A stretch of 53,759 nucleotides of DNA from Elusimicrobiota bacterium (GTDB lineage: Bacteria > Elusimicrobiota > Elusimicrobia > UBA1565 > UBA9628). Both the position numbers and the translations under genes were made by a program. This document shows positions 1,666-28,848 of this stretch, piece after piece. The notes beneath the pieces are model-generated. The model did not search any database. It was not told the origin of the DNA and was given only the letters and a program-made list of their open reading frames with translations. The DNA lies in contig JACPOW010000019.1 of assembly GCA_016191335.1 (NCBI GenBank), positions 1 through 53,759 of the forward strand. The letters run 5' to 3'. Every line of letters begins with the position of its first letter. Position 1 is the stretch's first letter.

Positions 1666-1670
1666 GGCTC

Positions 1671-2666: not shown

Positions 2667-2676
2667 AGAGGCCGCC

Positions 2677-4794: not shown

Positions 4795-4797
4795 AGG

Positions 4798-4803
4798 TAG
4801 AAT
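4798..4803 (+). promoter_or_regulatory. -10 box TAGAAT for the K+ channel gene
   Basis: TAGAAT begins inside the stop region of the prolyl oligopeptidase gene and ends 7 nt before the ATG at 4810, predicting a leaderless mRNA. No clear -35 is seen. Confidence 0.5.
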
Positions 4804-4809
4804 CACCGC

Positions 4810-5840: not shown

Positions 5841-5906
5841 GGTGCCAGGCCTACCGATGTTTGCTTTACCTCCCCGACTTACGCAAACATCGGTAGGCCT
5901 GGCACC
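5841..5906. repeat. Perfect 24-bp inverted repeat (REP-like hairpin)
   Basis: The left arm 5841-5864 begins GGTGCCAGGCCTACC and the right arm 5883-5906 ends GGTAGGCCTGGCACC; the arms are perfectly complementary with an 18-nt loop. It lies between the channel stop codon and a REP-type transposase gene. GTGCCAGGC-type palindromes next to RAYT genes suggest a REP or transposon end, though it could also act as a terminator for the channel gene. Confidence 0.8.
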
Positions 5907-5921
5907 AACCTCTAACCATTA

Positions 5922-5934
5922 AAAGCCTGGCACT
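5922..5934 (+). repeat. Left copy of 13-bp direct repeat flanking the transposase gene
   Basis: AAAGCCTGGCACT here is repeated exactly at 6897-6909, on the other side of the transposase gene. The core GCCTGGCAC also forms part of the 24-bp inverted repeat. Confidence 0.7.
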
Positions 5935-5965: not shown

Positions 5966-6868
5966 ATGGGACGACCTAAACGAATCCAGTACGCCGGCGC
6001 CTGCTACCTCGTCATACTGCAGGGCAACAACCGGCAGGACCTCTTCCTCTCCAACCAGGACCGCCGCCAGTTCCTCACCTTGCTGCGGCAATACAAGGAC
6101 CGCCACGGCCTCGAGGTGTTCGCCTACAGCCTCCTCGGCAACTCGGTCAACCTCCTCATCCAGACGTCGCAGGCGAACCTGTCCGCCGTGATGCAGGGCT
6201 TCAACACCCAGTACACGAAGTACTTCAACGCGGCCCACAACGCCGTCGGGCACGTGTTCCAGGGCCGGTACAAGGCCTACATCGTCGACAAGGACACCCA
6301 CCTGGCCGAGATGACGCGCTACGTCCACCTCGCCTGCGTCCGGGACGCCCTCAAGGACAAGCCCTGGCGCTACCAGTGGTCCTCCTGCGCCGCCTACGTC
6401 GAGGCCGAGCACAAGGAGCCGCTCGTCGACAGCGACCTCGTGCTGCGCAAGTTCGGCAACGGCCGCCTGAAGCAGTCGGTCCGCTACCTCCAGTACATCA
6501 AGGACCGCATGAAGACCGCCGGCGACCAGACCTTGCCCGTCATGGGCGGGGTGGCCATCGGGGGGGAGGCGTTCCTCAGCAGGATCTCCGCCCACAGCGA
6601 GCGCCCGACGGCGCCCCGCCTGGTCCCCGTCGAGGCCGCCCGCAAGATCATCGCCGAGGTGGCCGTCCGCCACGGCCTCACCGAGGAGAAGATCCTCGGC
6701 CGGGTGCAGTGGCGCGAGGTCTCGGCGGTCCGCCGGGAGGCCATCCACCGGGTCTGGAAGGAGACCCGTATGGGCGTTTCCGAATTAGCCCGCCTGTTCC
6801 AGCGCACCCCCAGCGCGATCAGCCAGCTGATCCGGTCTCTCGAGACCGGATCGCCGTCGATGAACTGA
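5966..6868 (+). CDS. REP-associated (IS200-like, Y1) transposase with degenerate HUH motif and C-terminal DnaA-like HTH
   Basis: 300 residues. Residues 1-145 match the REP-associated tyrosine transposase family, with typical FQGRYKA (98-104) and a tyrosine (Tyr119) in RYVHLACV where family members have the catalytic Tyr before NPVRA. The metal-binding His-x-His, normally in MPNHxHLL, reads GNSVNLL (58-64) here, so both histidines are lost (Ser60, Asn62). Residues ~210-300 form a helix-turn-helix unit resembling the DnaA C-terminal domain, which accompanies many such transposases. GCCTGGCAC repeats flank the gene. The frame is intact over its full length, so it may be a domesticated DNA-binding protein or a recently inactivated transposase. 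Confidence 0.85.
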   Translation: MGRPKRIQYAGACYLVILQGNNRQDLFLSNQDRRQFLTLLRQYKDRHGLEVFAYSLLGNSVNLLIQTSQANLSAVMQGFNTQYTKYFNAAHNAVGHVFQGRYKAYIVDKDTHLAEMTRYVHLACVRDALKDKPWRYQWSSCAAYVEAEHKEPLVDSDLVLRKFGNGRLKQSVRYLQYIKDRMKTAGDQTLPVMGGVAIGGEAFLSRISAHSERPTAPRLVPVEAARKIIAEVAVRHGLTEEKILGRVQWREVSAVRREAIHRVWKETRMGVSELARLFQRTPSAISQLIRSLETGSPSMN

Positions 6869-6896: not shown

Positions 6897-6909
6897 AAAG
6901 CCTGGCACT
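6897..6909 (+). repeat. Right copy of 13-bp direct repeat flanking the transposase gene
   Basis: An exact copy of the sequence at 5922-5934, 28 nt downstream of the transposase stop codon. The pair brackets the gene and is consistent with element ends or REP half-sites. Confidence 0.7.
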
Positions 6910-7009: not shown

Positions 7010-10000
7010 GTGACCCCTCGCTCCCTGCGCTTATTGGGACGGAAAATCACGGCGGCCGCGCTCGCGGCCGCCCTTGTGCTGTCCGGGTCCGGCCCCATCT
7101 ACGCCCAGGAGATCCGCGCGATCTCCGCCCAGAGCAAGGCCCCGGGCTACGCCGGCGAGACTGGGGCGCTGGCCCTCCCCAAGGTCCTCTCCCCTCTCTC
7201 TCCGACGGCGTTCAACGCCTCGCTGACGCCGTCCTTGCCGGTCCTTTCGGCGCCCTCGCTGACGCCGTCGGCCCCGGCCCTCGGCGGCCACGCGCGCACG
7301 CTCCCCGCCCTCGCGAACCCGTCCCTCGTCCCGGCGGCCCCCGCGGCCGCCTCGCCGCTCGCGCCCGCCGGGCGCCTCGCCGCGCTCAGGGCCCTGGTCT
7401 CCGGTCCGGCTCCGGTCACCCCCGACCGCCCGTCCCTCGGCTCCGCGAAGACCCCCGCCAAGGGCGCCGACGCCGTCCTGCCCGCCGAGGCCACGGCCGG
7501 CGACGCCAAGGAGTTCGCCGACGCCGCGTTCCGCCGCCTCCACGGCGAGGCCGGCGCCTCGGCCTCGGGCGCGGCCCCCGCTGTCGCCGCCGCTCCCGGG
7601 ACCCGGAGCTGGAAGCAGCGCCTCGGCCTGGCCGCCGCCTCCGTCGTCGCGGGCGGGGCCCTGGCCCTGCCCCACGGCGGAACCCACGCCGCCGGGGCCC
7701 TGCCGCCCGTCGACGTCGCGTCGGGCGCGAACTTCTCGGTCATCGGCCAGTACCTGGGGCAGGCGGGCTATTGGATCGGCAACGCCCTGGCGTTCGTGTT
7801 CCCGATCCCCGAGGTGTTCAAGGCGATCAAGGGCGGGAAGGTCGCGGTGCCGGCGTGGCGCGCGGGCATCCTCGTCACCGCGAGCCTCGCTCTCGGCCTC
7901 GTCAACGCGACCGTGGCCGGCATGCCGTTCTGGGGGATCCAGAACACCTTCGCCGCCGCGGCCATGCTGCTGGCCTGGCCCGCGGCGAAGTGGGGCAAGA
8001 AGGCCGCCGGCGAGGCCGGCGCCCTGAGCGGCAAGAAGTCGGCCGTCGCGACCGTCGTGACCTCGCTCCTCGCCCTGGCCTTGGCCGCGGCGATGTACTA
8101 CGCGGCGGCCGCGGTGATCCCGGCGGCGCTGGCGGCGGCGTTCGGCGCGGCCGCGGTCGCCAACGTGACCTTCGGCATCATGGCCGCCACCGGCGGCGCT
8201 TTCTTCCTGCTCTTCCTGCCCGACGTCATCTCCATCGTCCGCGGGCGCGCGCCGAACGGCTTCACCCCCGGCTTCTCTTTGCTGTTCCTCCTCGCCTCGC
8301 TCGGCTTCGTGGTGTGGACCGGCCACCTCGCCTGGATCGCCGAGCCCGGCTCGCCGCAGGCCGCCCAGTACGGCCTGTACGCCGCGCTCAACGCGGCCTA
8401 CGTCCTCGTCTCCGGGGCCAGCTGGTGGATCGGCCGGCGCGCGGCGAAGCCCGTCGTCGTCCCCGCTCCTTCGGACGAGGTCCCGCCGGCCGCCGAGCCC
8501 GAGCAGGCCTCTCCCTCGCGCGCCCCGCCGTCCCGCTTCGAGGGCCTGGCCGCGGCGGAATCCCGCGCCCACTCCTCCGCCCGGGCCCGCGCGGGCAACG
8601 TCCGCCTGATGCGCGTCGGCGTCGACCTCAAGAGCTCCGGTCCCCGCTGGGTCTTCGCCTTCCACGCTCCCGCCAAGAAGCAGATCCTGACCTACGGACC
8701 TAACGGCGTCGAGGCCCGCAAGTTCGGCGGCGACGAGCGCCCGGCGATGCTCCACCCCGAGGACCTCCCCGCCGTGGACCTCGAAGCCCGCCTCGCCGCC
8801 CTCGCCGAGAAGGAGCCCGGGTTCAAGCCGGTGCGCGCCGAGATCGTCGCGCTCGCCAAGGGCGGCCTGAAGGTCTACGGCTACGATTCCAAGAATAACT
8901 CGCGAGAAATGCCGTTGCCTTTGCCGGTCGTCGAATCCGCGCAGGTTCCGCCTTCGGCGGAACCACCGGCCGCTCCGGAACAGCCTTCGACGACGGCCGC
9001 CCCTGAGCCTGTCGTCGAAACCCCGGCTCCCGTGGTCGAGACCCCGAGCCAGGCCGACGCCGACATGGTCCAGGAGTACGGGCCGGTCCACGACGAGTTC
9101 CCCGGCCTTCCGGGTTCGCCTTCGGCGAACCCCCCGGCCGCTCAGGAACAGCCCTCGACGACGGCCGCCGCGGAGCCGGCCCTGCCGCGCAGCTGGAAGC
9201 GCTTCCCGGCGGAGGCGCGCGAGGCGACGAGCGCGGCGATGCTCGCGGCCAAGGCCGAGGCGCAGGCGCGCGCGCGCGCGCTGGCCCCGGACGCCCGGCT
9301 CGTCAGCGTGGCGATCAACCTCGTGGACCCGCGTTCGCATTGGATCTTCATCTTCCGCTCCGACAAGCGCAACGAGGAGCTGACGGTCTGGACGAAGCGC
9401 GTCGCGGTGCGCAAGCTCGGCTTCCGGCCGACGAAGGCCCCGACCCTCTGGGACACGCGCCTGGAGTCGGTCGGACCGCTCGACCGCGCCTACGCCGCCC
9501 TCAAGAAGGCGAATCCCCGCTTCCGGCCCGTGCGCGTCGAGGTGGACCCGGCGTGGACCGGGGCCGCCTCCTACCGCTTCCTCGACGCCTTCGGCCGGTC
9601 GGCCTTCGTCGGGGCCGACGGCAAGCCCGTCTTCGACGCCCCGGCCCTGCCGGTCTCCGCGGACGCCAAGCCCCCGAAGAGCTTCGAGAGCCTGCCCGAG
9701 GACGCCCGCGGCGCCGACGGCAAGTCCCTGCTGGCCCTGAAGGCCCAGGCTCAGGCCCGCGCCCGCGCGATCTCTCCGGACGCGCGGCTCGTGAAGGTCG
9801 CCATCAACCTCGACGACCCCCGCTCGCATTGGATCTTCGTGTTCCGCTCCGACAAGAACCGCACCGAGCTGACGGTGTGGACGAAGAAGATCGAGACGAA
9901 GCGCCTGCGCCCCGGCACCCGCCGCATCCCGACCCTCAACGACGCCCGCCTGGCGAAGGTCGATCCCGTCGCCGTCGCCTACGCCGCGCTGAAGGCCGCC

Positions 10001-13000
10001 AAGCCCGGCCTCAAGCCCGTCCGCCTCGAGCTGGTCCCGACCTGGAAGGGGGACGCGTCCTGGTCCTTCAAGGATTCCCGCGGCCGCGGCACCGCCGTCG
10101 CCGCCGTGGCGACGCCCGCCGCCCCGGCCCCCAAGCCGGAACAGCCGGATGAGCGCGGACCGCCGGCACCGACCGATCCGGCGCCTCCGGAAACGACGCA
10201 GCCGGCCCCGGCTCCTCCCGCGACCCCGGCCCCCGAGATCCCGAAGCCGGAAGTGCCCAAGCCTGAAGAACCGTCCTTCCCCGGCCCGCGCGTCGCCCCC
10301 AAGCACATCTATGAGGACTTCCTCGGCTTCCGCACCGTCAAGGGCGTCCGCCACGACCCGACGCTGAAGCCGTTGATGAAGATCGAGACCATCGACCAGG
10401 TCATCGACCAGATCTCCCGCCAGTTCAACATCAAGCGCGAGCGCGTCATCGAGCTCGGCGTCAAGTACCGCCTCAACGAGTTCAGCCCGCTCGAGTCCTG
10501 GATCGGCGTCTACGACCGGCTCCAGGCCGCCAACCGCGACCAGTTCAAGCGCTACGACTCGAAGAAGTACGACGGCTGGAAGAGCTTCCGGGAGCTGGCC
10601 AACAAGACCTACGCCCCCGGCTGGAAGGGAGCGCTGCAGCGCGCCCTCGAGTTCCACAAGCACTTCATCGGCGCGGCGGTGCGCTTCCCGTACCACCTGT
10701 TCGACATGTTCATCTTCGGCTACTTCCGCCAGGCGATCTCCTTCGAGTTCCGCCACTCGACCGAGGACTTCATGGCCCTGTCGGACAAGGACAACTTCGC
10801 CGAGCAGTGGCTCGAGTCCTCGATGCGCAAGGACGCGTTCGACGGGGCGGGCATGCTCGCCGGGCTCAAGGCGAAGGCGTGGTACCGCGCGGTCAACCGC
10901 TGGTTCATCGTCCCGGCCGCCGCGCCCCTGACGACCTTCCTCGCGCGCCGCCTGACGCTCGCGATCATGAGCGCGGTCGCGATGGGCCTGCTGGGCGCGT
11001 TCGCGCCGGTGCTGCCGCTCTCCTTCGCCCTGACCTCCATCCCGGTGCTCGGCCCCGCGATCGTCGCGGTGCTCAACGGCCTGCCCGTCGCCGTCGCCGC
11101 GGTGCCTTTCATCGGCGACGCCCTGGCGCCCGTCCTCGGGGCCGCGGTCGCGGCCCTGGCCAAGGACCTGATCCTCGGCCCGCTGCTCAACACCCTCATC
11201 CTGTCGACCTTGCTGACCTTCCCGGCGGCGGCGCGCGAGCGCATCGCCAAGCTGCGCGACGACGCCCCGCTGGCGAGCCTGCCGGTCAAGGGGCTGATCG
11301 TGGCCGTGCTCGGCGCGGCGGTCTCCTGGGAATTCTGGAAGGCCAACCTGAAGTCGTTCCTCGGCCTGGTCACGGTCGGCGCCGAGATCGAAGGCATCAT
11401 GACCTACGCGGGCACGATCGACTCGTTCATCGACCCCGGCGTCAAGGCCGTCACCGGCCGCGAGCTGCACCTGTTCCACAACATCGGCGCGGCCGTCGAG
11501 CGGCCGGAGGGCGACAGCCCGATCCCGTTCGGCGGCGCCATCACCTGGGGCAACACGCTCCTCTATAAGCTCCAGGCCCTGGCCGGCTTCAACATCTCCG
11601 ACGCCGTGATGCGCACGACCTTGATGGCCAAGGGCGCGGTGCTGGGCGAGAGCGCCCGCGACCTGCCGATGGCCATGCTGTCGGCGCAGGGCCTCATCGC
11701 CGCCGCGGGCGAGCGCACGCCCGAGCAGGCGAAGGGCCTGCCGTTCGACCCCGACCTGTGGAAGCAGCCGATGGACCAGGTCATGGCCCGGATCAAGGAG
11801 CTGTCGGGCCAGGCCGGCCACCTCGACGCGGAGATCGCCGCGGTCAAGGACCACCGCGTCCGCCTGCTGTCCGAGCTCGGCGACAAGCAGGCCCAGCTCG
11901 AGCGGCTCCAGAAGCTGAGCCGCCCCGTGACCCCCGAGGAGGAGGCCGAGCTCGCCCGCCTGAAGGCCGCGCTCGCGACCAAGGCCGACGAGGTCGAGGT
12001 GCGCGAGAAGCTGGCCGAGCGCCGCGACCTGCTGGCGCCGCCGAGCGACGCGGACGCCCTGGCCCGCCTCGAGGCCCTGCAGAAGGAGTTCTCGGGCCTG
12101 ACGCCGCCGCCGGACCGCAACGGCTACTGGGAGGACCTGGCCGCGCAGGACGCGTCGATGAAGGCCCTGTCCCAGCGCCTGGCCGACTACGCCGAGGGCC
12201 GCGGCGCCGCCGCGCCCGCCGGCGTCGCCTCCACCTTGAACCCCGAGGTCCGGGACAAGATCGACAAGCTCGTCGGCGAGATCGAGGTCCTGCGCGCCGA
12301 GGCCAAGGGGGAGGTCGCCCAGCGCGACGCCACCTCCCAGCTCCTCGCCTCGTCGAACCGGGTGCGCAACGCCGCCCTGCGCGAGCGCCGCGACGGCAAG
12401 GACATGCTGCGCTTCCACACCGACATGGCCAAGCTGGCCAGCGTGATGGACCTGGCGCTGTCGCTCAACGAGATCAACGCCGCGCAGGCCGCGATCAAGG
12501 AGATGATGGACCTGCTCGAGGCCAAGCGCGCGAAGATCGCCGCCTCCCGCGCGCAGAACCAGCAGAACCAGAGCGGAGCGGACCAGAACGCGGGCAACAC
12601 CGCCCAGTGGCGCGACGAGATCGACCGCGACGTCGCCGCCGACAACGACATGCTGAAGGACCTGGCCGACTCCGAAGCCAAGGCCGGGATGGTCTCCCGG
12701 ACGATCGGCACCTTCCAGACCGACATGCGCGCCTTCATCGACGGCATCAACGCCCAGGACCGGGGCCAGAGCGCCGACGCGGCGACGGAGTACCAGCGCC
12801 GCATCGACCTCCTGCCCCGGATCAAGGAGTGGCGCATCAACGGCGGCAACCCGAACGACCCCGACGCCTTCTCGCTGAAGAAGTTCAACGAGAACCTCGC
12901 CGAGGTCAACGACAACATCACCAAGGCCCAGGCCGGCCTGAGCCGCCTCGGCACCATGCCCCTCGAGTACGCGGGCGTGCTCGTCGTCGAGGTCCCCGGC

Positions 13001-16000
13001 CCCACGGTCTCGGTGAGCAACCCGACGCCGGAGCAGACCCGGCAGATCCTGGCCGACCGCAAGGTCTACTGGCAGGGCAAGAAGGCGGACTTCGGCAAGT
13101 CGCTCGACTCGGTCAACCGCATGCTCGACGGCGGCAACACGCGCACGGTGATCGACGAGTTCGGCGACCCGCACCCCGAGTCCCTGCCGCGCTGGAAGGC
13201 CCAGTCGCAGACCGAGATCTCCGAGGCGCGGGCCGCCCTGAACACCTACCTGACCCGGCTCGACGCCAACGCGGCCAGCATCAACCGCGTCGCGGGCTCG
13301 AACATCCCGATGCTGTCGGGCCTCGGCCTCGTCGCGCTGCAGGACGCGATCAAGAACTACGGCGACAGCCTGAAGGCCGTCCAATTCCCGGAGAGCGACA
13401 CGCTCGCGGGGCACACGGCGATGATGGACCTGGTGAACTCCGCCAAGCTCACGCCCCACGCGGCGCGCGAGATCATCCGCTGGTCCAAGGCCGACGCGAC
13501 GATCACCGCGATCGACGACGCGACGCAGAACGTCCTGCCCAAGGCCCGGACCGGCCTCCAGGGCGTCGTGACCATGCTCGACGGGGTGCTGGCCGACGTC
13601 GACGCCGACCTCGCGTTCGTCAACACCGGGACGGGCGGGGGCCAGGCCCTGATCGACCGCAAGACCGTCCTCCTGCGCGACAGGATCATCCCCGCGCTCC
13701 AGGGCGCCAAGTCGATGCTGACCGAGACCTTGATCCCGTACCAGCAGAAGTCGATCGACCAGGTCTCCGCCGCGAACAGCGACTACTTCAAGCTCTACGA
13801 CTCGAAGAAGACCGTGATCACGGAGGCGGTCAAGCTCAACAACCGCACCATCCCGTGGGCGTTCGCGACCTTCGGCGCGGCGGACGGCAACCAGGCCGAG
13901 GCGCGGCAGAAGATCGGCGAGTGGCGCCAGAAACTGCAGAAGAACCTCGACGGCTACGATGACGCCGAGGGGCACAATAAGGGCATCCGAGAGTACCAGG
14001 TGGAGATGGGCCAGCGAAAAGACCCCAATTTCACCGGCACCGAGGTCGTCTACGGCGAGACCCAGCCCTTCAGCCTCCCGAAGAAGATCGCCCAGTACAC
14101 CGCCGAGCGCGCGCAGCGGGCGGAGCAGATCAACACGCAGGACGCGCAGATCAACGAGATCATCGGCAAGATCGAAACCATTTCCAAGGGCAAGTACCAG
14201 ATGTCCCAATATCGCCTGCCGGTCGGGGTGACCGCGGACGCCGGGGGCGTGGCGCGGGTCCAGGCGGCCGTGGACGCGAAGGCCATCCAGAACCTCGTCG
14301 ACAGGCTCAAGGCGGTCGCCGACGAGCAGCAGAGCGCCGGGGGCATCGACCTGGGCGGCAGCGGCGGCGACGGCACGGTCCCCTCCGGCCCCCAGGCGCC
14401 GATCACGGTCTCGGAGAGCCAGCAGATCTCGCTGCTCGCGCTCGAGGCCGCCAAGCGCCTCGTGCCCACGAGCCTCAACCAGCCGGACAGCGCCCCCGCC
14501 GCGTACGCGATCGCGCGCTTCCTCTACTCCGACACCGTGGTCGCCGCCGGCGTCGACGGCCTCAACGTCAAGGTCCCGGCGACCGAGCGCTTCCTGGCCC
14601 GGATCTCGACCGTGCTCGGCGAGGCGATCGCCGACATCCCGAAGGACGAGGCCTACGCCTCCTCCAACGGCACGAGCGAGACCGGCGAGCAGGTCCTCGC
14701 GCGCAAGGTCCGGGTGTTCTCCTCCATCGACGGGGTCCTGACCGAGGCCATGACCTTCTTCCGGCTCAAGCAGACCTGGAACCAGGACCGTTACGGCAGC
14801 GTCGACAGCGTGCAGGGCTACTACGACTCGATGCGCGACATCTACAGCGGCGGCCAGACGGCCAACGACAACGAGGTCACGGCCCTGAACACGATGCAGG
14901 AGGCCCTGCGCAAGACGATGACCGACCTCGAGGACAAGCGGATCAAGATCTCCTCGTGGCTCAGCCAGCTCAACCCGAAGGAGAAGAGCGCGCTCAACAA
15001 CGTCAGCGAGGACGTCTCGCGGATCATGGACAAGACCCGCGCGGTCCTCGAGTCCAACATCGACTGGCACCGCCTGCAGGACCAGCTCGGCCGCTCCCGC
15101 GAGATCCTCCAGGCCCAGTTCTCCCAGATCGACGACAAGCAGAACGAGCTGGCCGCGCTCCTCAACGACCCGAAGAACTCCGTGCAGGACCAGCTCGACC
15201 CCGCGCTCGTGCGCCGCATCGAGGCCCTGCGCCTCGGCCGCGGCGGCTGGGCCAACGACGGCACCAAGACCGACCCGGCGTCCCTCGTCATCCGCAAGTC
15301 GGAGTACGGCGCCTTCGTGGACGCCCTCCTGGGCCTCGTCACGCAGGGCGCGCAGAGCTCGGCCATGGAGGTCGCCGCGATCAAGGAGGACCTGCTCCGC
15401 AACCCGCAGGGCCTGGCGTCGCTGATCCCGAACTCCAAGGTGCTCGAGTTCGGCGACACCGCCGACGGCTTCTACCTGGTCTACCAGTCCAAGTTCGCCG
15501 TCCCGCACGGCCTCGACACGAGCTCGTGGGTGACCCTCGGCAACATCGGCAAGGTGTTCGGCAGCAACGTCAGCGTCTCCGGCTACCAGCTCGCCAGCCC
15601 GCCCAGCAAGGACGGCGAGAACGCCCCGTACGGCGACAAGGGCGTCGAGGTCCAGGTCGAGACCCTGCAGGGCAAGAACTGGGTCAACTACCTGAACGTG
15701 AACCTCCACCGCTTCGCCTTCGACATCCCGGCCGACAACAGCGTCAAGACCGGAGCCGGCGAGAGCCGCATGATGATCTTCGACGACTTCGCGGTCATGC
15801 TGTTCGGCGACAAGCTCTACGTCGGCCTCGCCGGCTTCGCCGACGGGGCCGTCACCGACACGAAGGACAAGCCGTACTACTACGGCGGGAACCTGAAGAG
15901 CTCCCTGAAGCTGACCGAGGTCATGAAGCTGAACTTCGAGCAGCGGGCCCTTTTCGCGCAGGACCCCCGCAAGTTCCTCCAGGAGGTCAACCTCGACTTC

Positions 16001-19000
16001 ACCGGCTACGACCCCGACCTCAACCGCGACTTCACCATCACCGCCGAGGGCGCGAAGAAGAACTACTTCCGCACCCAGGTCGGCCCGCAGTTCGACCTGA
16101 ACCGCCTGATGAACCCCGACGGCGGGGGGGACACCTTCACGCTCGACCTGTACTGGGCCAAGACCTCCGGAACGGACGACATCAACCAGCAGCTCGGCGG
16201 CGTGAGCATCCTCAAGGGGTTCTCTCTGAAGAACGACGACGGCAAGACCTGGATGCGCATCGACAACCGCCTGACCGGCGAGATGGGCGCCAAGCAGAAC
16301 GAGATCGGCGACCGCCTGTCGGTGTCCTTCCCCGACCAGGGCCTGGTCGTCTCCGCCGAGGGCAAGATCATCGGCGGCGCGAAGACCTACTTCGGCGAGA
16401 TCTCGAAGAAGTTGAGCGGCCAATCGAACATCGCGGTCAGCTACGGCTCGCAGTACGTGGGCATGAACAACCGCCTGACGATCTCGATGAACACCTCGTT
16501 CACCCTCGCCGAGCTGTGGCAGAAGGTCAGCGACAACTCGGCCCAGAACCTGCGCGGCGGCGAGACCCTCAAGGCCTACAACCGCGAGCTCGGCGACTTC
16601 TTCGCCGGCGACGAGGCCAAGTCCTCCCGCACCGCGATGGAGCTGCAGAAGGTCTTCGAGCAGGACGTGGCCCGCAAGCTCGTGACCCAGGACATCGGCA
16701 ACCTGACCCGCGAGATCCAGGAGCTGCGCAAGGCCGGCGCGTTCATGGACAACTCGCGCGTGCGCGGCATGGTCGGCTTCGTCTCCAACTCGGTCTCCAA
16801 CGACCTGGCCGAGCGCGCGGTCGGCGGCGGCTTCACGGTCGGCACCTACACCGAGATGTCTCTATCAAAGACCCAAAAGCAGTTGATTGAATCGAAGGCG
16901 CAGATCCTCTACCGCGAGGGCCTGCGCCTGCAGGACCGCATGCTCTCCCTGACCAAGGACTGGCAGGCCGCCGTCGTCGAGGTCGCCGAGGCGCAGTGGG
17001 CGCTGAAGGTCGCGGACTTCGCGGTCAAGAACGCCCCGTCTGAGACCTCCCGCGGCGAGGCCGCGGTCCGCCTCGCCGACGCGGAGTCCCGTCTCCATCA
17101 GGCCGTCCTGCGGTACAACGCGCTGACGGGCCGCGACCCCCAGAGCGCGCCCCCGTTCCAGGACCTCAACTCCGAGGATCTGCGCCGGATGCTCGGCAAC
17201 ATCCGCCGCCTGATCGCCTCCCCCGACCGCCTGGGCACCATCCTGGGCAGCCTCAACGAGGAGTCCCTGAAGCAGTCGGTCGGCGAGAACCCCTTCAACC
17301 TCATCGACTGGATCCCGTGGGTGGACCGCCTGTCGGCCGGCTTCGGCGTGCAGTTCCAGGACATGATGGCCAACCAGGCGCTGACCATCGGGGCGTCGGT
17401 CCGCCTGCCGATATACGACCCCGGCTCCAAGAGCGCGGACAAGGCGTACGCGCTCGAATCCGAGGCCGTGCAGGCCGAGATGCGCCAGGCCTACGCGGAG
17501 CGCACGCGCGACGGCCAGGGCGCCCTGGAGCAGGCCCGCGTCTGGGACGCGCGGGCCCGCGCCGTCGAGCCCGGCGTGCCGGGCGCGGCCCAGGCGCTGT
17601 CCGACGCGATCCGCGCCTACCGCAACGGACTGATCCCGCCGGAGAAGCTGAGCGCGGCCTTCTCGAACTGGGACTGGTACATGTCCTCCACGCTCGAGGC
17701 GATGTCGCGCGCGGAACTGCTCCGGGCGCAGGCCGGCGTGACCGCGCCCTTCGAGCGCCCGACGCGCAACGCGGGGACGCCGCTGCGCCTCTCCTCGATC
17801 GACGACGCGTTCGCCGCGGCGTCGGCGAACTCCAACAACCTCTTCGAGATCGCCAAGCGCCAGGAGGCCGCGGAGGAGATGGCCCGCGCCGCCGACCACC
17901 GCGTGCAGAAGGCCTGGCTCGACATCAACGTCGGCATGGGCCTGACCGCGCAGGGCGTGGGCTGGCTGCCCTCGATCGGAATCACCGGCATCCCCGTGAC
18001 CCCCGTGCTCGGCTTCGAGCTCAAGCCCGAGGAGATGCGCGAGCTGCAGGTCAAGGAGCACACGCAGCAGGCCGAGTACTACAACGCCCTCAAGACCCGC
18101 GTCGAGTCCGGTCTCGCCGTGCAGTTCTACCAGAACATGGTCGCGCTCCGCTCGGCCCAGTCGCGCCTGGCGGTGTACGACGGCCGCCTGCTGCCCGAGC
18201 TCGCGGCCGCCGCGGCCTCGGGCGGCGCCGAGGCGACGCGCCGCTACGACCAGGCCAAGGTCGCCCGCGAGGCGGCGGCCCTCGAGTTCGCGCAGGCGCG
18301 CGAGACGATCAACTTCCTGCTCGGGCGGCCGGCCGACGCGCGCGTCGAGGCCGCGATCGACGAGCGCCAGGCCCTCGAGGCCCTGTCCCGCCTGCTGGCG
18401 GCGAAGGACCCCGTCGGCACCCAGCGCCGCATCCTGCAGGCCCGCGTGTCCACCGCGAAGGTCGTCGAGGACCTCGTCGACAAGAACCTGAAGGTCGAAC
18501 TGCTCCAGCTCGAGCCCGTGAGCCTCGTCGTGCGCTCGCTCGGCCGCCTGATGGGCGCGCTCACCGACGCCCCGATCTACAACACGGAGCTCGCCGCCGC
18601 CTCGCGCATCCAGACCCTGACCGAGGAGCGCCAGCGCGACGCCTACGACGGCCGCCGCGACGCCGAGGCCGCCAAGCTCTCCCTGCGCCTCAACGCCGCC
18701 CGCGACGCCCTGCGCGCGATCCGCGGCGAGGACGCGGAGAGCCTCCTCGAGAAGAGCCGCCTCTCCTCGCAGATCTTCACGCTCCAGGCCGGCCTGCTCT
18801 CGCTCGGCGTCGACCCCGACAAGGGCGTCGCCTCCGGCGCGGGGGCCGTGCCGAAGAGCTGGCCGGAGCTCACGCGGCGCCTGGCCGAGTCCGAGCAGAC
18901 CCTGACGACCGTGGCGCCCGAGGACCGCATCGACCTGCTCACGCCCGACAACCTGAAGCACCGCTCCGCGGCCTTCATGCGCTACTACTTCGCCAAGCAG

Positions 19001-22000
19001 ACCTTGGGCCGCGAGCCGATCGACCGGAACTTCGTCGAGGGCTGGATCGAGCTGCGCCTCTCCGACCCGGGCACCCCGCCCGAGGTCCTGCTGCGCCTCG
19101 CGGAGCTGCGCACCGCGAAGGCCGACCGCCTGTACCGCGACGCGCTCGTCGGCGCCGCGGCCCGCGCCGACATCGTGGCCGCCCAGTTCGAGGGCGACGC
19201 GCGGCTCCTGCGCTTCATCGACCGCGAGATCCGCGACCGCGACGCCTCCGTGGCGCCGATGCAGCTCGACCAGGTCCGGAAGTCCCTGGTCGTCCGCCTC
19301 GAGAGCCAGCGCCAGCAGATGGTCGCGCGGCTCGGCCTGCCCCCGGCGACGCTCCTCGAGGACCTGCTGCGCCTGGTGCCGGACGACGCGGCCAACTCCG
19401 ACAACCTGCGCGACCTGGCGGGACGCCTGATCGGCGACATCCGCGCCCGCCAGATCGACTCGATCCGCCGCACCTTGTTCGACGGCGGCACGCCGGCGAG
19501 CTGGGGCAACGAGGACGGGATCATGGGCCAGATCAAGGCCAACACGATCGCCGAGCGCATGAGCTACAAGGGCTTCACGCCCGTGGCCACCTTCGGCTAC
19601 TTCCGCGGCACGCCGATCGGCGGCGGCTTCATCGAGGCGCCCGACCCCCGCGAGATCGAGGCCGGCCTCGAGAAGGTCATGGGCGAGGTCCTGCGCAAGG
19701 AGATGCAGTCCTCCGGACGCCTCCAGGAGCTGACCCTCCGGCTGCACTCGCTGATGGTCCGCGTCGAGGACGGCGCGAAGGGCCTCGAGGCGCGCCGCAA
19801 GCTCATCGAGTCCGCGGAGCGCGACCTCCGCGCCCGCGCCGAGGTCTCCGGCACCGGCTCCGCCGAGTACAAGGCGGCGCAGGACGCCCTGATCGCGGCC
19901 TGGGACGGCTTCGCTCGCCAGATGACGGCCACCAAGGCCGACTTCATCACCTTGGTGACCGAGCTCGAGGCGCTCGGCGAGGGCTCGGCCGGGTCCCTGC
20001 GCCCGCTGACCTCGCCGGACGTCCCCGAGCGCCGCGTCACGAACGACCCGAAGGACCAGCTGCTCGACTACTGGGCCGGCCGCTACGCCGACCCGTCCTT
20101 CGAGTCCGGCGTCGAGGACCTGTTCGCGCGCATGGGCACGGCGGTCCCCGCCGCGGTGCGCGCGCGCATCCTCAAGGACGCGGCGCTCTACCGCACCGCC
20201 CTGGCCGACGCGAAGGCCCTCGACAGCAACGGCTACACCCCGGCCGAGAAGTTCGACCGGCTCGTCAAGGTCGACGTCGAGGGCAAGCGCCTCAACCTGC
20301 GCGCGGACCTGCAGACGGCCCTGCGCGGCGTCGGCCTCCTCGACAAGGATTCCAACCCGGTCGGCGCGGAGTTCCTGGCCTTCATGAAGGCCGACCTGAA
20401 GGCGGCCTCCGCGGCTTTCTCGCTGGACCGCGACGCGAAGGTCCGCATCGACCGCGCGCTCAGCGAGACCTACTGGAACGCGCACGGGCCCAGCGACGCC
20501 GAGGCCGCCGTCTTCTCCCGCCTCGACAAGCTGTACGCCGCCGCCGAGGACGCGCGCCACCTCCTGCTGACGAGCTACCTCGCCGACTCCGGGGACGACG
20601 CGACGAGGTTCGTCCTCAAGGACGCCCAGCTCGACGCCTACCTCAAGGCCCAGGGGGCCTTCGACGCCGAGCTGGCGCGCGCGCTCGCCGCCAAGCCTTC
20701 GGCGGCCGTCATCCGCACGCTCGACGGCCTGTACGGCATCAAGGAGTCGCTCGACCGCGGCGTGGCGCGCGCCAAGCACGGGCGCGGCATGGCCGCGCTC
20801 GACGCCCTGATCTCGCTCGAGGAGTCGCGCCTGCGCGCCGCGCGCTGGACCCGCCAGACCCCGGCCCGCATCGACCCGATCGCCGAGGCCCTGTCCCGGC
20901 TCCGGGAGACGCGCGAGCGCTGGACCTCGGGCAAGGTCGGCGCCGGCTTCCAGGCCCTGTACGCGGTGACCTTCGTCGGCGCCGACGGCGCCCGCACGTG
21001 GAACGTCAAGGAGTGGCTCAGCGCCGCCGACGTCGAGGCGTCCCTGGTGCGGGCCGGCCAGACGCCCCGCGGCACGCCCGGCGAGATCGTCGAGCGCCTG
21101 AACCCGGCCACGGGCAAGATGGGCTATTTCATCGACGTTCCGAGGACCGGCACCGGCCGCTTCGAGGTGATCGGCGGCGCGGACGCCGCCGACGCCGCGC
21201 GCCTCGCGGCCGACACGAAGTACCAGGACAACCTCGCCGTCGCCGACCTGCAGAAGCTGATGGAGGCGCCGGGCGCCCACTTCGTGTCCTTGGGCGGCGC
21301 CGGGAAGAAGCCCGAGGCCTGGTCGTTCGACGCGGTGTTCGGCCCGGGCGGCAAGCACTCCGAGGGCCGCGTGTTCTTCTTCGAGGCGCCCGTGGGCGGC
21401 AAGCCCGCGAAGGCGCTGCACCCTCTCGCCGCCCTCTCCCGGCCGCCCGAGGAAGTCGTCATGAAGCTCTACACCGGCGACAAGCCGCTGAGCCGCGACC
21501 GCTTCCCGAACCTCCGCAGCCTCGAGACGTCCGAGGAGAACGCGGCGTTCAGGACCTTGGTCATCTCGCCCCTGGGCGCGGAGAAGCTGGCCGAGAACGC
21601 GCGCCGCCTGGAGTCCTCCGAGCGCCGCCGCGGCTGGATCGAGGTCAAGCTGAACAGCTTCGGCTTCGCCCGCGACGAGAACGGCCAGGTCGCCCAGCTC
21701 TACCGCACGAAGGACGACTTCGAGGCCCAGTGGAAGGCCTACGACAACGCGGAGCGCGACCTGACGGCCGCCGAGCGGGACCTCGCCACCGCGAAGGCCG
21801 AGGAGGCCGCGCGCACCGCCGAGGCCGAGGCCGCCAAGTCCGCCGCCGACGGCCAGAGCCGGACCTACCAGAACGCCCAGCTGCGCCTGCGCGCCGCGCT
21901 GCGCCAGGCGATGCTGGCCCAGGGCCTCGACGAGCGCTCCCCGTCGTTCAAGGGCGAGCTCGACCGCCGCGTCGCCGAGCCCAAGCTGAGCAAGATCCCG

Positions 22001-23845
22001 GCGGCGAAGGACGGCGGCCTGCAGGCCGAGATCGAGAAGGCCCACGACGCCTACGCCGACGAGATCAAGGCGATGGACGCCGCCGCGAAGGCCTTCACCG
22101 ACGCGTCCTCGAAGCTCAAGCTGGCGCACGCCCGCACGGTCAACGCCGAGACCGCGCTGGCCGACGCCAAGCGCACCTTGACGCGCGGCGGCACCAAGGA
22201 TAAGCCCGGGACCTGGACCCTGCACCGCTCCGCCGACCTGAGCCTCGGCCTCGACGCCGACAAGAAGGTCGTCCGCGTCGCCGCGGCGGCCGCGCGCGGG
22301 CCCAAGGCCCTCGACGAGTCCGTGACCGCCGGCGACCGCACGCCGGTCGAGCGCACCCTGACCGGCTCCCTGCTGGCCGCCGTCGTCGACGCCGACGGCC
22401 GGCTCGTCGGCGACTACGCCAGCGAGCAGTCGGTCGACGACGCCTTCCGGAAGTGGAACCTCATCTCCTACCGGGCCGGCGGCGACCGGATCGGCGCCGA
22501 CGGGGACGAGGCGATGACCAAGGTCCGCTTCAGCCATTACGAGGAGAACGGCCTGCCCGTCCTGCTCGGCGAGAACTACCTGATCGAGCGCCTCGAGGGC
22601 GCCCAGTCGGCCCTGTGGAAGGCGAAGCACTGGTCGTACCTGCCCTTCAACTGGGGCAACATCCTCCTCGAGATCCCGCGCGGCGTCGCCGGCATCCCGG
22701 CCGAGTTCGCCGGGCGCAACCCGAGCCAGCATCACTACCTGGGCCGGGCGTACATGTACAAGACCGAGGGCGGCACGACCGAGAACCACGGCTTCTTCCG
22801 CAGCGTGCTGGGCGCGGTCGACGTCCTCAATCTCCTGCCCGACCCGGCCGACCGCTTCTTCGACCCGAGCCAGTTCCCGGACAAGGTCCGCATCGACTCC
22901 GCCGTGCGCCCGGGCGAGGGCCTGTGGGACAAGAAGATGACCGTCGAGGAGGGGGACGTGATGGCGGGCCGCACCCCGAACCGCGCCGGCGACAAGATCG
23001 CGGACCGCGACCTGAAGGTCCACCTCGGGCGCCAGTCCCTGCAGCGTCAGGCGACGCACGCCGCCGAGGACCTGGAGGCCGCGCGCGTGCGCACGCTCTC
23101 CCGCTTCCACGGCGGCGTGGAGCAGATCACCCTGGAGACCCGCCGCGGCCGCGACGGCTGGTACCAGGAATCCAAGCGCGTCGCCGCCGACGGCCCCGAG
23201 GCCGTCAGCCGGCGCCTCGCCGACGGCGCGATCGCCTCCGACCCGCGCTCGAGCGGCTCCACCGACGAGGGCCGCGGCGGGGACGTCGTGACCACGGCGA
23301 CGCCCGGCCACCTGTTCGTCGACGCGGTCGAGCAGCGCGTGCGCATCCGCCCCGGCGCCGACGCCTTCGGCCGCCAGGCCGACGCCCTGAAGGGCTACGG
23401 CGAGCGCGTGGCCGAGCGCGGCCGTTCGACCGCGGCGGAGCGCGCCGCGCTCGCCGAGGACCTGGCGAAGGCCGAGGCGAAGGTGGACGGGACCTTGGCG
23501 GAGCGCGGCCAGGCCCGCGCCGAGATCGAGACTTTGCGCCAGGACTGGAGCCGGCTGTCCCAGCGCATCGGCGAGCAGCTCGCGCTCCAGAGGCGCATCG
23601 ACGCTCTCAAAGTCGAGATCAAGGACCTCCAGGGCCGCATCGCCTTCTGGGACCGCTACCTGCGCCTCCTGCAGGAGGCCCGCGACAACCCCTCGGACCC
23701 GAACAACCCCGACCACCCCCGCCCGCCCTACGGACCGAACCCGATGTTCTGGGCCTGGATGCTGGCGCTGGCCTTCCTCGGCGCGCTGGCCTCGGCGCTG
23801 TGGCACTGGCTGCGCCGCTCCTCCCCGCCCGCCAGCGCCGCCTGA
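7010..23845 (+). CDS. Giant (5611-residue) modular envelope protein with TolC-like segments
   Basis: One intact frame of 16.8 kb; GTG start followed by a clear signal peptide ending in a YAQ-E cleavage site. In order: Ala/Pro/Ser-rich region (~40-200); a multi-TM block (~205-478) with two Pro-containing loops reminiscent of PQ-loop proteins; three related ~130-residue repeats (~507-636, 727-874, 889-1029) joined by Pro/Ala/Thr linkers; a second hydrophobic block (~1297-1460); long coiled-coil regions (from ~1587); a beta-rich segment (~2808-3195); two outer-membrane-efflux-like helical units (~3290-3560 and 3594-3781; for example TIGASVRLPIYDPGSK and ETINFLLGRPAD); more helical sequence; and a C-terminal TM helix (~5577-5603) after a Pro-rich linker, with a basic tail. 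Codon bias is consistent throughout, so it is a real gene. It probably spans or scaffolds the envelope; no known family covers the whole protein, and function is unknown. Confidence 0.85.
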   Translation: MTPRSLRLLGRKITAAALAAALVLSGSGPIYAQEIRAISAQSKAPGYAGETGALALPKVLSPLSPTAFNASLTPSLPVLSAPSLTPSAPALGGHARTLPALANPSLVPAAPAAASPLAPAGRLAALRALVSGPAPVTPDRPSLGSAKTPAKGADAVLPAEATAGDAKEFADAAFRRLHGEAGASASGAAPAVAAAPGTRSWKQRLGLAAASVVAGGALALPHGGTHAAGALPPVDVASGANFSVIGQYLGQAGYWIGNALAFVFPIPEVFKAIKGGKVAVPAWRAGILVTASLALGLVNATVAGMPFWGIQNTFAAAAMLLAWPAAKWGKKAAGEAGALSGKKSAVATVVTSLLALALAAAMYYAAAAVIPAALAAAFGAAAVANVTFGIMAATGGAFFLLFLPDVISIVRGRAPNGFTPGFSLLFLLASLGFVVWTGHLAWIAEPGSPQAAQYGLYAALNAAYVLVSGASWWIGRRAAKPVVVPAPSDEVPPAAEPEQASPSRAPPSRFEGLAAAESRAHSSARARAGNVRLMRVGVDLKSSGPRWVFAFHAPAKKQILTYGPNGVEARKFGGDERPAMLHPEDLPAVDLEARLAALAEKEPGFKPVRAEIVALAKGGLKVYGYDSKNNSREMPLPLPVVESAQVPPSAEPPAAPEQPSTTAAPEPVVETPAPVVETPSQADADMVQEYGPVHDEFPGLPGSPSANPPAAQEQPSTTAAAEPALPRSWKRFPAEAREATSAAMLAAKAEAQARARALAPDARLVSVAINLVDPRSHWIFIFRSDKRNEELTVWTKRVAVRKLGFRPTKAPTLWDTRLESVGPLDRAYAALKKANPRFRPVRVEVDPAWTGAASYRFLDAFGRSAFVGADGKPVFDAPALPVSADAKPPKSFESLPEDARGADGKSLLALKAQAQARARAISPDARLVKVAINLDDPRSHWIFVFRSDKNRTELTVWTKKIETKRLRPGTRRIPTLNDARLAKVDPVAVAYAALKAAKPGLKPVRLELVPTWKGDASWSFKDSRGRGTAVAAVATPAAPAPKPEQPDERGPPAPTDPAPPETTQPAPAPPATPAPEIPKPEVPKPEEPSFPGPRVAPKHIYEDFLGFRTVKGVRHDPTLKPLMKIETIDQVIDQISRQFNIKRERVIELGVKYRLNEFSPLESWIGVYDRLQAANRDQFKRYDSKKYDGWKSFRELANKTYAPGWKGALQRALEFHKHFIGAAVRFPYHLFDMFIFGYFRQAISFEFRHSTEDFMALSDKDNFAEQWLESSMRKDAFDGAGMLAGLKAKAWYRAVNRWFIVPAAAPLTTFLARRLTLAIMSAVAMGLLGAFAPVLPLSFALTSIPVLGPAIVAVLNGLPVAVAAVPFIGDALAPVLGAAVAALAKDLILGPLLNTLILSTLLTFPAAARERIAKLRDDAPLASLPVKGLIVAVLGAAVSWEFWKANLKSFLGLVTVGAEIEGIMTYAGTIDSFIDPGVKAVTGRELHLFHNIGAAVERPEGDSPIPFGGAITWGNTLLYKLQALAGFNISDAVMRTTLMAKGAVLGESARDLPMAMLSAQGLIAAAGERTPEQAKGLPFDPDLWKQPMDQVMARIKELSGQAGHLDAEIAAVKDHRVRLLSELGDKQAQLERLQKLSRPVTPEEEAELARLKAALATKADEVEVREKLAERRDLLAPPSDADALARLEALQKEFSGLTPPPDRNGYWEDLAAQDASMKALSQRLADYAEGRGAAAPAGVASTLNPEVRDKIDKLVGEIEVLRAEAKGEVAQRDATSQLLASSNRVRNAALRERRDGKDMLRFHTDMAKLASVMDLALSLNEINAAQAAIKEMMDLLEAKRAKIAASRAQNQQNQSGADQNAGNTAQWRDEIDRDVAADNDMLKDLADSEAKAGMVSRTIGTFQTDMRAFIDGINAQDRGQSADAATEYQRRIDLLPRIKEWRINGGNPNDPDAFSLKKFNENLAEVNDNITKAQAGLSRLGTMPLEYAGVLVVEVPGPTVSVSNPTPEQTRQILADRKVYWQGKKADFGKSLDSVNRMLDGGNTRTVIDEFGDPHPESLPRWKAQSQTEISEARAALNTYLTRLDANAASINRVAGSNIPMLSGLGLVALQDAIKNYGDSLKAVQFPESDTLAGHTAMMDLVNSAKLTPHAAREIIRWSKADATITAIDDATQNVLPKARTGLQGVVTMLDGVLADVDADLAFVNTGTGGGQALIDRKTVLLRDRIIPALQGAKSMLTETLIPYQQKSIDQVSAANSDYFKLYDSKKTVITEAVKLNNRTIPWAFATFGAADGNQAEARQKIGEWRQKLQKNLDGYDDAEGHNKGIREYQVEMGQRKDPNFTGTEVVYGETQPFSLPKKIAQYTAERAQRAEQINTQDAQINEIIGKIETISKGKYQMSQYRLPVGVTADAGGVARVQAAVDAKAIQNLVDRLKAVADEQQSAGGIDLGGSGGDGTVPSGPQAPITVSESQQISLLALEAAKRLVPTSLNQPDSAPAAYAIARFLYSDTVVAAGVDGLNVKVPATERFLARISTVLGEAIADIPKDEAYASSNGTSETGEQVLARKVRVFSSIDGVLTEAMTFFRLKQTWNQDRYGSVDSVQGYYDSMRDIYSGGQTANDNEVTALNTMQEALRKTMTDLEDKRIKISSWLSQLNPKEKSALNNVSEDVSRIMDKTRAVLESNIDWHRLQDQLGRSREILQAQFSQIDDKQNELAALLNDPKNSVQDQLDPALVRRIEALRLGRGGWANDGTKTDPASLVIRKSEYGAFVDALLGLVTQGAQSSAMEVAAIKEDLLRNPQGLASLIPNSKVLEFGDTADGFYLVYQSKFAVPHGLDTSSWVTLGNIGKVFGSNVSVSGYQLASPPSKDGENAPYGDKGVEVQVETLQGKNWVNYLNVNLHRFAFDIPADNSVKTGAGESRMMIFDDFAVMLFGDKLYVGLAGFADGAVTDTKDKPYYYGGNLKSSLKLTEVMKLNFEQRALFAQDPRKFLQEVNLDFTGYDPDLNRDFTITAEGAKKNYFRTQVGPQFDLNRLMNPDGGGDTFTLDLYWAKTSGTDDINQQLGGVSILKGFSLKNDDGKTWMRIDNRLTGEMGAKQNEIGDRLSVSFPDQGLVVSAEGKIIGGAKTYFGEISKKLSGQSNIAVSYGSQYVGMNNRLTISMNTSFTLAELWQKVSDNSAQNLRGGETLKAYNRELGDFFAGDEAKSSRTAMELQKVFEQDVARKLVTQDIGNLTREIQELRKAGAFMDNSRVRGMVGFVSNSVSNDLAERAVGGGFTVGTYTEMSLSKTQKQLIESKAQILYREGLRLQDRMLSLTKDWQAAVVEVAEAQWALKVADFAVKNAPSETSRGEAAVRLADAESRLHQAVLRYNALTGRDPQSAPPFQDLNSEDLRRMLGNIRRLIASPDRLGTILGSLNEESLKQSVGENPFNLIDWIPWVDRLSAGFGVQFQDMMANQALTIGASVRLPIYDPGSKSADKAYALESEAVQAEMRQAYAERTRDGQGALEQARVWDARARAVEPGVPGAAQALSDAIRAYRNGLIPPEKLSAAFSNWDWYMSSTLEAMSRAELLRAQAGVTAPFERPTRNAGTPLRLSSIDDAFAAASANSNNLFEIAKRQEAAEEMARAADHRVQKAWLDINVGMGLTAQGVGWLPSIGITGIPVTPVLGFELKPEEMRELQVKEHTQQAEYYNALKTRVESGLAVQFYQNMVALRSAQSRLAVYDGRLLPELAAAAASGGAEATRRYDQAKVAREAAALEFAQARETINFLLGRPADARVEAAIDERQALEALSRLLAAKDPVGTQRRILQARVSTAKVVEDLVDKNLKVELLQLEPVSLVVRSLGRLMGALTDAPIYNTELAAASRIQTLTEERQRDAYDGRRDAEAAKLSLRLNAARDALRAIRGEDAESLLEKSRLSSQIFTLQAGLLSLGVDPDKGVASGAGAVPKSWPELTRRLAESEQTLTTVAPEDRIDLLTPDNLKHRSAAFMRYYFAKQTLGREPIDRNFVEGWIELRLSDPGTPPEVLLRLAELRTAKADRLYRDALVGAAARADIVAAQFEGDARLLRFIDREIRDRDASVAPMQLDQVRKSLVVRLESQRQQMVARLGLPPATLLEDLLRLVPDDAANSDNLRDLAGRLIGDIRARQIDSIRRTLFDGGTPASWGNEDGIMGQIKANTIAERMSYKGFTPVATFGYFRGTPIGGGFIEAPDPREIEAGLEKVMGEVLRKEMQSSGRLQELTLRLHSLMVRVEDGAKGLEARRKLIESAERDLRARAEVSGTGSAEYKAAQDALIAAWDGFARQMTATKADFITLVTELEALGEGSAGSLRPLTSPDVPERRVTNDPKDQLLDYWAGRYADPSFESGVEDLFARMGTAVPAAVRARILKDAALYRTALADAKALDSNGYTPAEKFDRLVKVDVEGKRLNLRADLQTALRGVGLLDKDSNPVGAEFLAFMKADLKAASAAFSLDRDAKVRIDRALSETYWNAHGPSDAEAAVFSRLDKLYAAAEDARHLLLTSYLADSGDDATRFVLKDAQLDAYLKAQGAFDAELARALAAKPSAAVIRTLDGLYGIKESLDRGVARAKHGRGMAALDALISLEESRLRAARWTRQTPARIDPIAEALSRLRETRERWTSGKVGAGFQALYAVTFVGADGARTWNVKEWLSAADVEASLVRAGQTPRGTPGEIVERLNPATGKMGYFIDVPRTGTGRFEVIGGADAADAARLAADTKYQDNLAVADLQKLMEAPGAHFVSLGGAGKKPEAWSFDAVFGPGGKHSEGRVFFFEAPVGGKPAKALHPLAALSRPPEEVVMKLYTGDKPLSRDRFPNLRSLETSEENAAFRTLVISPLGAEKLAENARRLESSERRRGWIEVKLNSFGFARDENGQVAQLYRTKDDFEAQWKAYDNAERDLTAAERDLATAKAEEAARTAEAEAAKSAADGQSRTYQNAQLRLRAALRQAMLAQGLDERSPSFKGELDRRVAEPKLSKIPAAKDGGLQAEIEKAHDAYADEIKAMDAAAKAFTDASSKLKLAHARTVNAETALADAKRTLTRGGTKDKPGTWTLHRSADLSLGLDADKKVVRVAAAAARGPKALDESVTAGDRTPVERTLTGSLLAAVVDADGRLVGDYASEQSVDDAFRKWNLISYRAGGDRIGADGDEAMTKVRFSHYEENGLPVLLGENYLIERLEGAQSALWKAKHWSYLPFNWGNILLEIPRGVAGIPAEFAGRNPSQHHYLGRAYMYKTEGGTTENHGFFRSVLGAVDVLNLLPDPADRFFDPSQFPDKVRIDSAVRPGEGLWDKKMTVEEGDVMAGRTPNRAGDKIADRDLKVHLGRQSLQRQATHAAEDLEAARVRTLSRFHGGVEQITLETRRGRDGWYQESKRVAADGPEAVSRRLADGAIASDPRSSGSTDEGRGGDVVTTATPGHLFVDAVEQRVRIRPGADAFGRQADALKGYGERVAERGRSTAAERAALAEDLAKAEAKVDGTLAERGQARAEIETLRQDWSRLSQRIGEQLALQRRIDALKVEIKDLQGRIAFWDRYLRLLQEARDNPSDPNNPDHPRPPYGPNPMFWAWMLALAFLGALASALWHWLRRSSPPASAA
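8944..9169 (+). repeat. Duplicated linker DNA with two hairpins inside the giant gene
   Basis: Two linkers share about 53 bp of nearly identical DNA (8949-9001 and 9117-9169), including CGACGACGGCCGCC. Each begins with a 9-bp stem around a TTC loop: GGTTCCGCC/GGCGGAACC (8944-8964) and GGGTTCGCC/GGCGAACCC (9112-9132). Both encode a Pro-Pro-Ala-Ala-x-Glu-Gln-Pro-Ser-Thr-Thr linker between repeat domains. Confidence 0.75.
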
Positions 23846-23890
23846 CCGCGTCGGTTGGAACATCAGGAATTGTCCGTCAAGGGGCCTTTT

Positions 23891-28847: not shown

Positions 28848-28848
28848 C

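Follow-up and report, generated by a model that had tools for sequence, protein, structure and literature searches.

A giant Elusimicrobiota gene encodes a putative envelope-spanning protein with TolC-like units and a possible porin-type barrel

We analyzed a stretch of 53,759 nucleotides (the window; G000:C17:1-53759) from an Elusimicrobiota genome of 3.66 Mb (93.88% complete, 135 contigs). Between positions 7010 and 23845 of its forward strand, the window holds one uninterrupted open reading frame (ORF) that encodes 5,611 amino acids, with a GTG start and a single terminal stop. This gene is real and conserved, and its product contains stretches resembling TolC-type outer-membrane channel proteins. 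We tentatively propose, with not quite an even chance of being right, that the product is one exported, envelope-spanning giant chain combining a porin-type barrel with a single-chain, pseudo-trimeric TolC-type duct, which would act as an outer-membrane conduit tethered to the inner membrane.

The giant protein contains TolC-like units

OMF/TolC channels are trimers of one small protein, and three TolC protomers together form one 12-strand barrel. The initial annotation had recognized two outer-membrane-efflux-like units in the giant protein; TolC-like units are present, and it is their number that changes, to up to six half-units or up to three protomers' worth of TolC-like material. In the structure model, half-units 1-4 show a resemblance to the TolC fold. 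The giant protein shares strand-strand-long-helix half-units and fold matches with the OMF/TolC family (PF02321; OprN, TolC, OprM), and it shows the two-half protomer fold, in which beta hairpins combine with long helices. It departs from the family in its build, since solved OMF chains measure ~380-490 residues and carry a single protomer of ~430 residues, whereas several half-units, amounting to up to three tandem protomers, lie here in a 5,611-residue chain together with a predicted barrel, transmembrane (TM) blocks and long helices.

Protomers 1 and 2 scored 93.3% (2.7e-7) and 88.2% (3e-6), respectively, against a profile built from ordinary TolC-type ORFs of Elusimicrobiota (27 rows in its last listed round, with at least 4 row pairs representing one ORF fetched twice), compared to 0.7% or less for eight other stretches of the same protein (1.2% or less in another comparison). 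This contrast argues that the TolC-like units are not chance low-complexity matches, an objection that the initial annotation had raised, and it points to relatedness between protomers 1 and 2 and TolC proteins at the sequence level; a weaker relation is indicated for half-unit 6. The OEP profile (PF02321) did not rise above the cut-off on the window protein and did so in two homologues, L040 (27 bits) and L039 (28.7 bits). A PDB sequence search with a profile of the TolC region returned 0 matches up to E 1, so that the TolC relation is visible only through the fold, the OEP matches in some homologues and the comparison with nearby TolC rows.

Searches of Pfam and NCBIfam with five overlapping segments of the window protein gave no model at the cut-off. 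Coiled-coil-type matches to the SCAB_CC, Filament, Cauli_AT, Rad50 and SMC models lay below it and were set aside, as was a sub-cut-off CCP_MauG match in one homologue (0.0058). The view that the protein belongs to no described family thus stands for the libraries searched (Pfam, NCBIfam and PDB sequences), but Elusimicrobiota have already been reported, in passages of PMC11573180, to be rich in huge proteins. Among the open-licence papers listed in literature searches, none showed a fused or giant TolC-like protein, which does not prove that none exists; where PMC8277102 speaks of fusions, it deals with an AcrB trimer linked by engineering and with proteins other than TolC. Another enlarged TolC relative was noted at G003:C34:10805-11872, where OEP matches lie within an open frame of 1,469 residues.

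A beta-rich region beside the TolC-like units may form a porin-type barrel

The beta-rich stretch of the initial annotation was recovered next to the TolC-like units, and with low confidence it looks like a porin barrel. Its structure model has a pLDDT (predicted local distance difference test) of 52.9 and a pTM (predicted template modeling score) of 0.29, with low confidence in the first half. Foldseek ranks 1-48 were all outer-membrane barrels, or mutants or designs of them, and the same was true of the VIA rows among the matches listed. Strand amphipathicity gave z < 0 in 3 of the 15 predicted strands tested, these being the strands of at least 8 residues among 25 and including 2 that belong to TolC hairpin 1. 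Long antiparallel strands and fold matches are shared with porin-type barrels (OmpU, MOMP, OccK, OmpF, AlgE); unlike them, the region is embedded midway along a giant chain, has no sequence family match and is modeled with low confidence. Porins are closed antiparallel barrels of ~16 strands, and this region may form a barrel of that type. Outer-membrane pore proteins that are naturally fused in twos or threes have been reported as rare cases (PMC4827864); they have, as the giant protein would, more than one outer-membrane channel domain in a chain. Those described in the passages available are of porin-type families, with no OMF/TolC protein among them, whereas the giant protein has TolC-like units.

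Membrane segments, repeats and long helices flank the outer-membrane-type modules

A signal peptide, two hydrophobic multi-TM blocks, a triplicated domain, very long coiled coils and a C-terminal TM anchor had all been annotated from the letters alone, and each was found again, the coiled coils as a long helical stretch. The signal peptide was identified by eye, as were N-terminal signal peptides in many relatives. Hydropathy peaks mark TM block 1 at residues 287-417 and TM block 2 at residues 1310-1421. The module carrying TM block 1 is fused into the giant protein in the window species, whereas in five other genomes (G259, G231, G128, G245 and G106) it is encoded separately, by an upstream gene that has a signal peptide of its own. 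A PQ-loop identity (PF04193), which the initial annotation had proposed checking, was rejected for this block: no such Pfam match was obtained at E ≤ 1 in window positions 7700-8500 or in the separate-gene homologues L114, L117 and L118. The region with TM block 2 occurs mostly in orthologues and is sparse in paralogues.

Repeats R2 and R3 of the triplicated ~145-residue domain are 55% identical, compared to 32% for R1/R2 and 31% for R1/R3 (BLAST E of 1e-40, 2e-9 and 2e-10, respectively, each from a two-sequence comparison). Within the long helical stretch, residues ~2029-2253 and ~2327-2599 represent an internal duplication; the top H0/H1 score in the hhalign comparison of this region reflects overlapping windows only. 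The hydropathy peak of the C-terminal TM lies at residue 5579, and a peak of at least 1.6 was seen in 10 of 21 aligned members, being absent from L029, L036 and L020, while some others are cut by contig ends. The C-termini of the homologues L027, L030, L031, L032, L034 and L041 display, by eye, a Pro-rich linker, a PWW-like motif, a TM-like stretch and a basic tail, which together resemble a protein-sorting tail. Judging from its signal peptide, TM blocks and C-terminal TM, the chain may be anchored in the inner membrane and have its middle part in the outer membrane.

Proposed arrangement and alternatives

In the arrangement that we favor, the giant chain would be exported and its middle part would reside in the outer membrane, where a porin-type beta-barrel would be followed by three tandem TolC-type protomers (six half-units). 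These would fold into one single-chain pseudo-trimeric duct, to which the six half-units would contribute 12 strands. Attachment to the inner membrane and the bridging of the periplasm would fall to the TM blocks, the long helical region and the C-terminal TM. Tethered in this way, the protein would serve as an outer-membrane conduit, probably one used in export. We infer the third protomer as a complete unit, the closure into a single duct, the topology and the export function. The initial annotation had suggested a single-chain trans-envelope conduit or scaffold; the trans-envelope anatomy fits (a secreted chain, TM segments, outer-membrane-type modules and a C-terminal TM), and the conduit function stays conditional. 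If true, this would be a natural single-chain TolC-type channel fused to a second outer-membrane barrel, a symmetric channel frozen into one asymmetric chain, and one of the giant proteins of Elusimicrobiota that still lack an explanation would gain a definite molecular function. It would also raise the question of how export and membrane insertion are achieved for a 5,600-residue chain that carries two outer-membrane modules as well as inner-membrane segments.

A structural scaffold or tether, in which the TolC and porin modules would be non-conducting anchors only and the helices would space the membranes or carry surface parts, is a somewhat unlikely alternative. The long helices, the TM blocks in the N-terminal part and the TM at the C-terminal end would suit it, as would the lack of a recognized adaptor or exporter among ten scanned neighboring ORFs between 124 and 32359 (32363-53692 was not scanned; the ORF at 27587-28852 is probably not a gene), although OMF genes can be unlinked from those of adaptors and exporters. 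Giant ORFs of Omnitrophota have likewise been read as surface/adhesion proteins, with adhesion proposed as their role in passages of PMC10066038. However, Pfam and NCBIfam detected neither an adhesion nor a carbohydrate-active domain in the five segments, and conservation is highest in the beta-rich/first TolC stretch (residues 2821-3000, with 58-64% identity to the window protein in 17 more distant members), which would be surprising if the stretch served only as an anchor.

It is also fairly unlikely that only two TolC-type protomers exist, with residues 3960-4340 being unrelated helical material and no pseudo-trimer formed, an option that overlaps with the scaffold and with the polyprotein considered below. 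This stretch is modeled as low-confidence hairpins with non-TolC fold matches, matches the TolC profile weakly, and gave no alignment of half-units 5-6 with half-units 1-4. Yet the profile match of protomer 3 exceeds those of the eight other stretches and of its 8 shuffles, a strand-turn-strand-helix pattern is conserved in half-units 5 and 6, and half-unit 6 of L027 and L020 gave OEP matches of 20.9 and 14.5 bits, respectively, both below the cut-off.

A polyprotein seems improbable. In that case, periplasmic cleavage of the exported chain would release a porin-like barrel, helical parts and TolC-like subunits able to assemble as usual. The modular build and the existence of the N-terminal module as a separate gene would agree with it, and tandem TolC protomers would yield equal subunit numbers; the half-units are so divergent (14 of 15 pairs below 10% in hhalign) that the protomers are unlikely to be interchangeable in a homotrimer.

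The reading frame is genuine and has full-length relatives

The GC content by codon position of the 5,611-residue frame was 0.56-0.75, 0.37-0.63 and 0.91-1.00 for the first, second and third positions, respectively, across 19 blocks of up to 900 bases. The third-position GC (GC3) in all blocks identifies 7010-23845 (+) as the coding frame, in keeping with the consistent codon bias annotated initially, and the long antisense ORFs at 7031-16423 (-) and 16865-23863 (-) are read from this pattern as shadows of the giant gene. The whole-length ratio of nonsynonymous to synonymous substitution rates (dN/dS) was 0.26 against L023 and 0.35 against L024. By 800-residue block it ranged from 0.14 to 0.61, with the maximum in residues 4001-4800 (0.41 and 0.61), and the 11-codon tail gave 1.0 and 0.65.

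Giant genes of the same architecture were sought in related genomes and found uninterrupted in G016 (5,647 residues, 90% over residues 1-5610) and G006/L013 (5,445 residues), which makes the misassembly feared in the initial annotation unlikely. That the frame is spurious or misassembled has a negligible chance: a draft, metagenome-assembled-like genome in 135 contigs and the long opposite-strand ORFs would allow it, and the GC3, the dN/dS and the collinear full-length ORFs elsewhere contradict it.

The C-terminal half (2,811 residues), with which the homologue search was done, matched 33 of 38 genomes searched, the own genome counted, in stop-free frames of up to 5,647 residues; the distribution of the first half rests on the fetched loci. 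All ten named-record loci are Elusimicrobia/Elusimicrobiota metagenome-assembled genomes, and in one named record (CP096137, L015) the gene is present as several collinear pieces. Within the phylum, a profile of residues 2440-3340 matched 24 of 247 genomes; 21 of these, with the own genome among them, belong to the same order, and the other three are distant members of the same class (G036, G189, G204). The own genome also carries a shorter paralogue with a 3,860-residue frame (G000:C129, L036). In the 21-member alignment, residues ~1660-4900 are common to orthologues and paralogues, and residues 1-1080 are variable. No relative was found in the viral contigs searched.

Giant genes are said, in passages of PMC12057145, to be common in these phyla. 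With the giant proteins of Omnitrophota and Elusimicrobiota (PMC10066038, PMC11573180, PMC12057145) the window protein shares giant size, TM segments, few known domains and occurrence in the same or neighboring phyla. It differs in that the passages available present those proteins as adhesins, coats or weapons, or assign them no known role, and do not mention TolC or porin modules.

A transposase-like gene and a shared motif precede the giant gene

A relative of Y1 transposases of ~300 residues lies upstream on the same strand in 12 of the 17 loci with upstream sequence, and the Pfam Y1_Tnp model matched all three such neighbors tested. It is adjacent to the giant gene in 10 of these 12; the separate N-terminal module intervenes in L114, and ~1.9 kb with a small ORF in L075. 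Its apparent lack in the AT-richer loci L116-L118 is weakly supported, since the GC3 filter hid ORFs there. The 12 giant-linked proteins are split by a long branch (support 1.000) from six of at least six own-genome paralogues, in a listing that omitted the window's own Y1 gene. TnpA-REP/RAYT proteins have HUH and Y---NP motifs, whose histidines and Asn bind metal according to passages of PMC6006769, and both motifs are intact in all six paralogues. In contrast, the giant-linked proteins have all lost the first His of HUH (the second is kept in 6 of 12, read from the alignment) and the Asn of Y---NP (the Tyr is kept in 11 of 12). With these metal-binding residues lost, the neighbor looks like a domesticated, catalytically dead transposase, and is possibly a DNA-binding regulator.

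Both the Y1-like gene and the giant gene have the motif AAGCCTGGCAC ahead of them. When up to one mismatch is allowed, it occurs 6 times in the window versus 0.69 expected, and near the start of the giant gene or its homologues in 14 of 29 rows versus 0.25 expected from shuffles, although these rows are related and not independent, one (an additional L026 ORF, from the opposite strand) was miscounted, and three more were too short to count. Exact copies number six genome-wide (reversed control, 0). The window holds two of them, and a third sits next to the paralogous giant, on the strand opposite to it (G000:C129:80524); among the remaining three, one falls within a reading frame and one in a pair of copies resembling repetitive extragenic palindromic (REP) sequences. 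A sigma-54 reading of the TGGCAC motif was dropped by eye, there being no TTGC at the usual spacing of the consensus. The genome has 20 copies of the related sequence GGTAGGCCTGGCAC (reversed control, 0). Inverted copies were seen on 8 of 10 contigs, and the sequence looks like a REP family. A wider proposal, which we hold as doubtful, is that one gene product would form a complete trans-envelope conduit (pseudo-trimeric TolC duct plus porin barrel, both ends tied to the inner membrane), controlled by the domesticated, catalytically dead transposase through a REP-related binding site before both genes.

Table 1. Positions of the features described in the window
Feature	Position	Strand	Evidence
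Inverted pair of REP-like sequence (20 genome copies)	5842-5855 and 5892-5905	- and +	Motif search
AAGCCTGGCAC motif before Y1 gene	5923..5933	+	Motif search
Y1-transposase-like gene, conserved neighbor, HUH motif lost	5966..6868	+	Pfam Y1_Tnp, locus survey, alignment
AAGCCTGGCAC motif before giant gene	6898..6908	+	Motif search
Inverted repeat between Y1 gene and giant gene, 10-bp arms, 6-base loop	6911..6936		Repeat search
Giant gene, 5,611 aa	7010..23845	+	ORF, codon-position GC, homologues, dN/dS
Signal peptide, residues ~1-33, ends ...PIYAQ	7010..7108	+	By eye
TM block 1, residues ~245-480	7742..8449	+	Hydropathy; separate-gene homologues
Three copies of ~145-aa domain, residues 495-640 (R1), 722-868 (R2), 890-1035 (R3)	8492..10114	+	Pairwise comparison
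Region with TM block 2, residues ~1090-1460	10277..11389	+	Alignment, hydropathy
Long helical region, residues 1640-2800	11927..15409	+	Alignment, profiles; helices of 2440-2800 in structure model
Beta-rich region, porin-type outer-membrane barrel by fold (low confidence), residues ~2819-3166	15464..16507	+	Structure model, fold searches, strand amphipathicity
TolC-like half-units 1 and 2, residues 3240-3610	16727..17839	+	Structure model, fold matches, OEP matches, profile comparison
TolC-like half-units 5 and 6, residues 3960-4340 (weaker evidence)	18887..20029	+	Model, OEP matches, profile comparison, strand pattern
C-terminal region, residues 4340-5470, no family match (Pfam, NCBIfam)	20027..23419	+	Alignment
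C-terminal coiled-coil-like stretch, residues 5470-5560	23417..23689	+	By eye from sequence
C-terminal TM, aromatic start, basic end	23744..23818	+	Hydropathy

Other genes at the locus

Downstream, window positions 24002-25261 encode a 419-residue Ala/Pro-rich protein with a signal peptide and a C-terminal hydrophobic segment, which has a homologue in G016 (L063) and gave no match in a Pfam scan. A sensor histidine kinase follows at 25324-27480 (HAMP, PAS and HisKA domains, and a sub-cut-off Cache match) and is a conserved neighbor, being present in 8 of the 11 downstream flanks.

On the upstream side, beyond the Y1 gene, two clusters of large proteins with weak similarity to each other are represented, whose members reach 2,460 residues in relatives. 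Window positions 1-1617, at the contig start, represent the C-terminal part of one such protein, and another lies at L070:171-7514. For the upstream giant, Pfam gave only ResIII, in one homologue, NCBIfam gave nothing useful and a PDB search no match. The L070 protein P0006 carries a signal peptide and the motifs AHTGAGKS and NDEYD, and judged by eye only the upstream giant may be helicase- or SecA-like.
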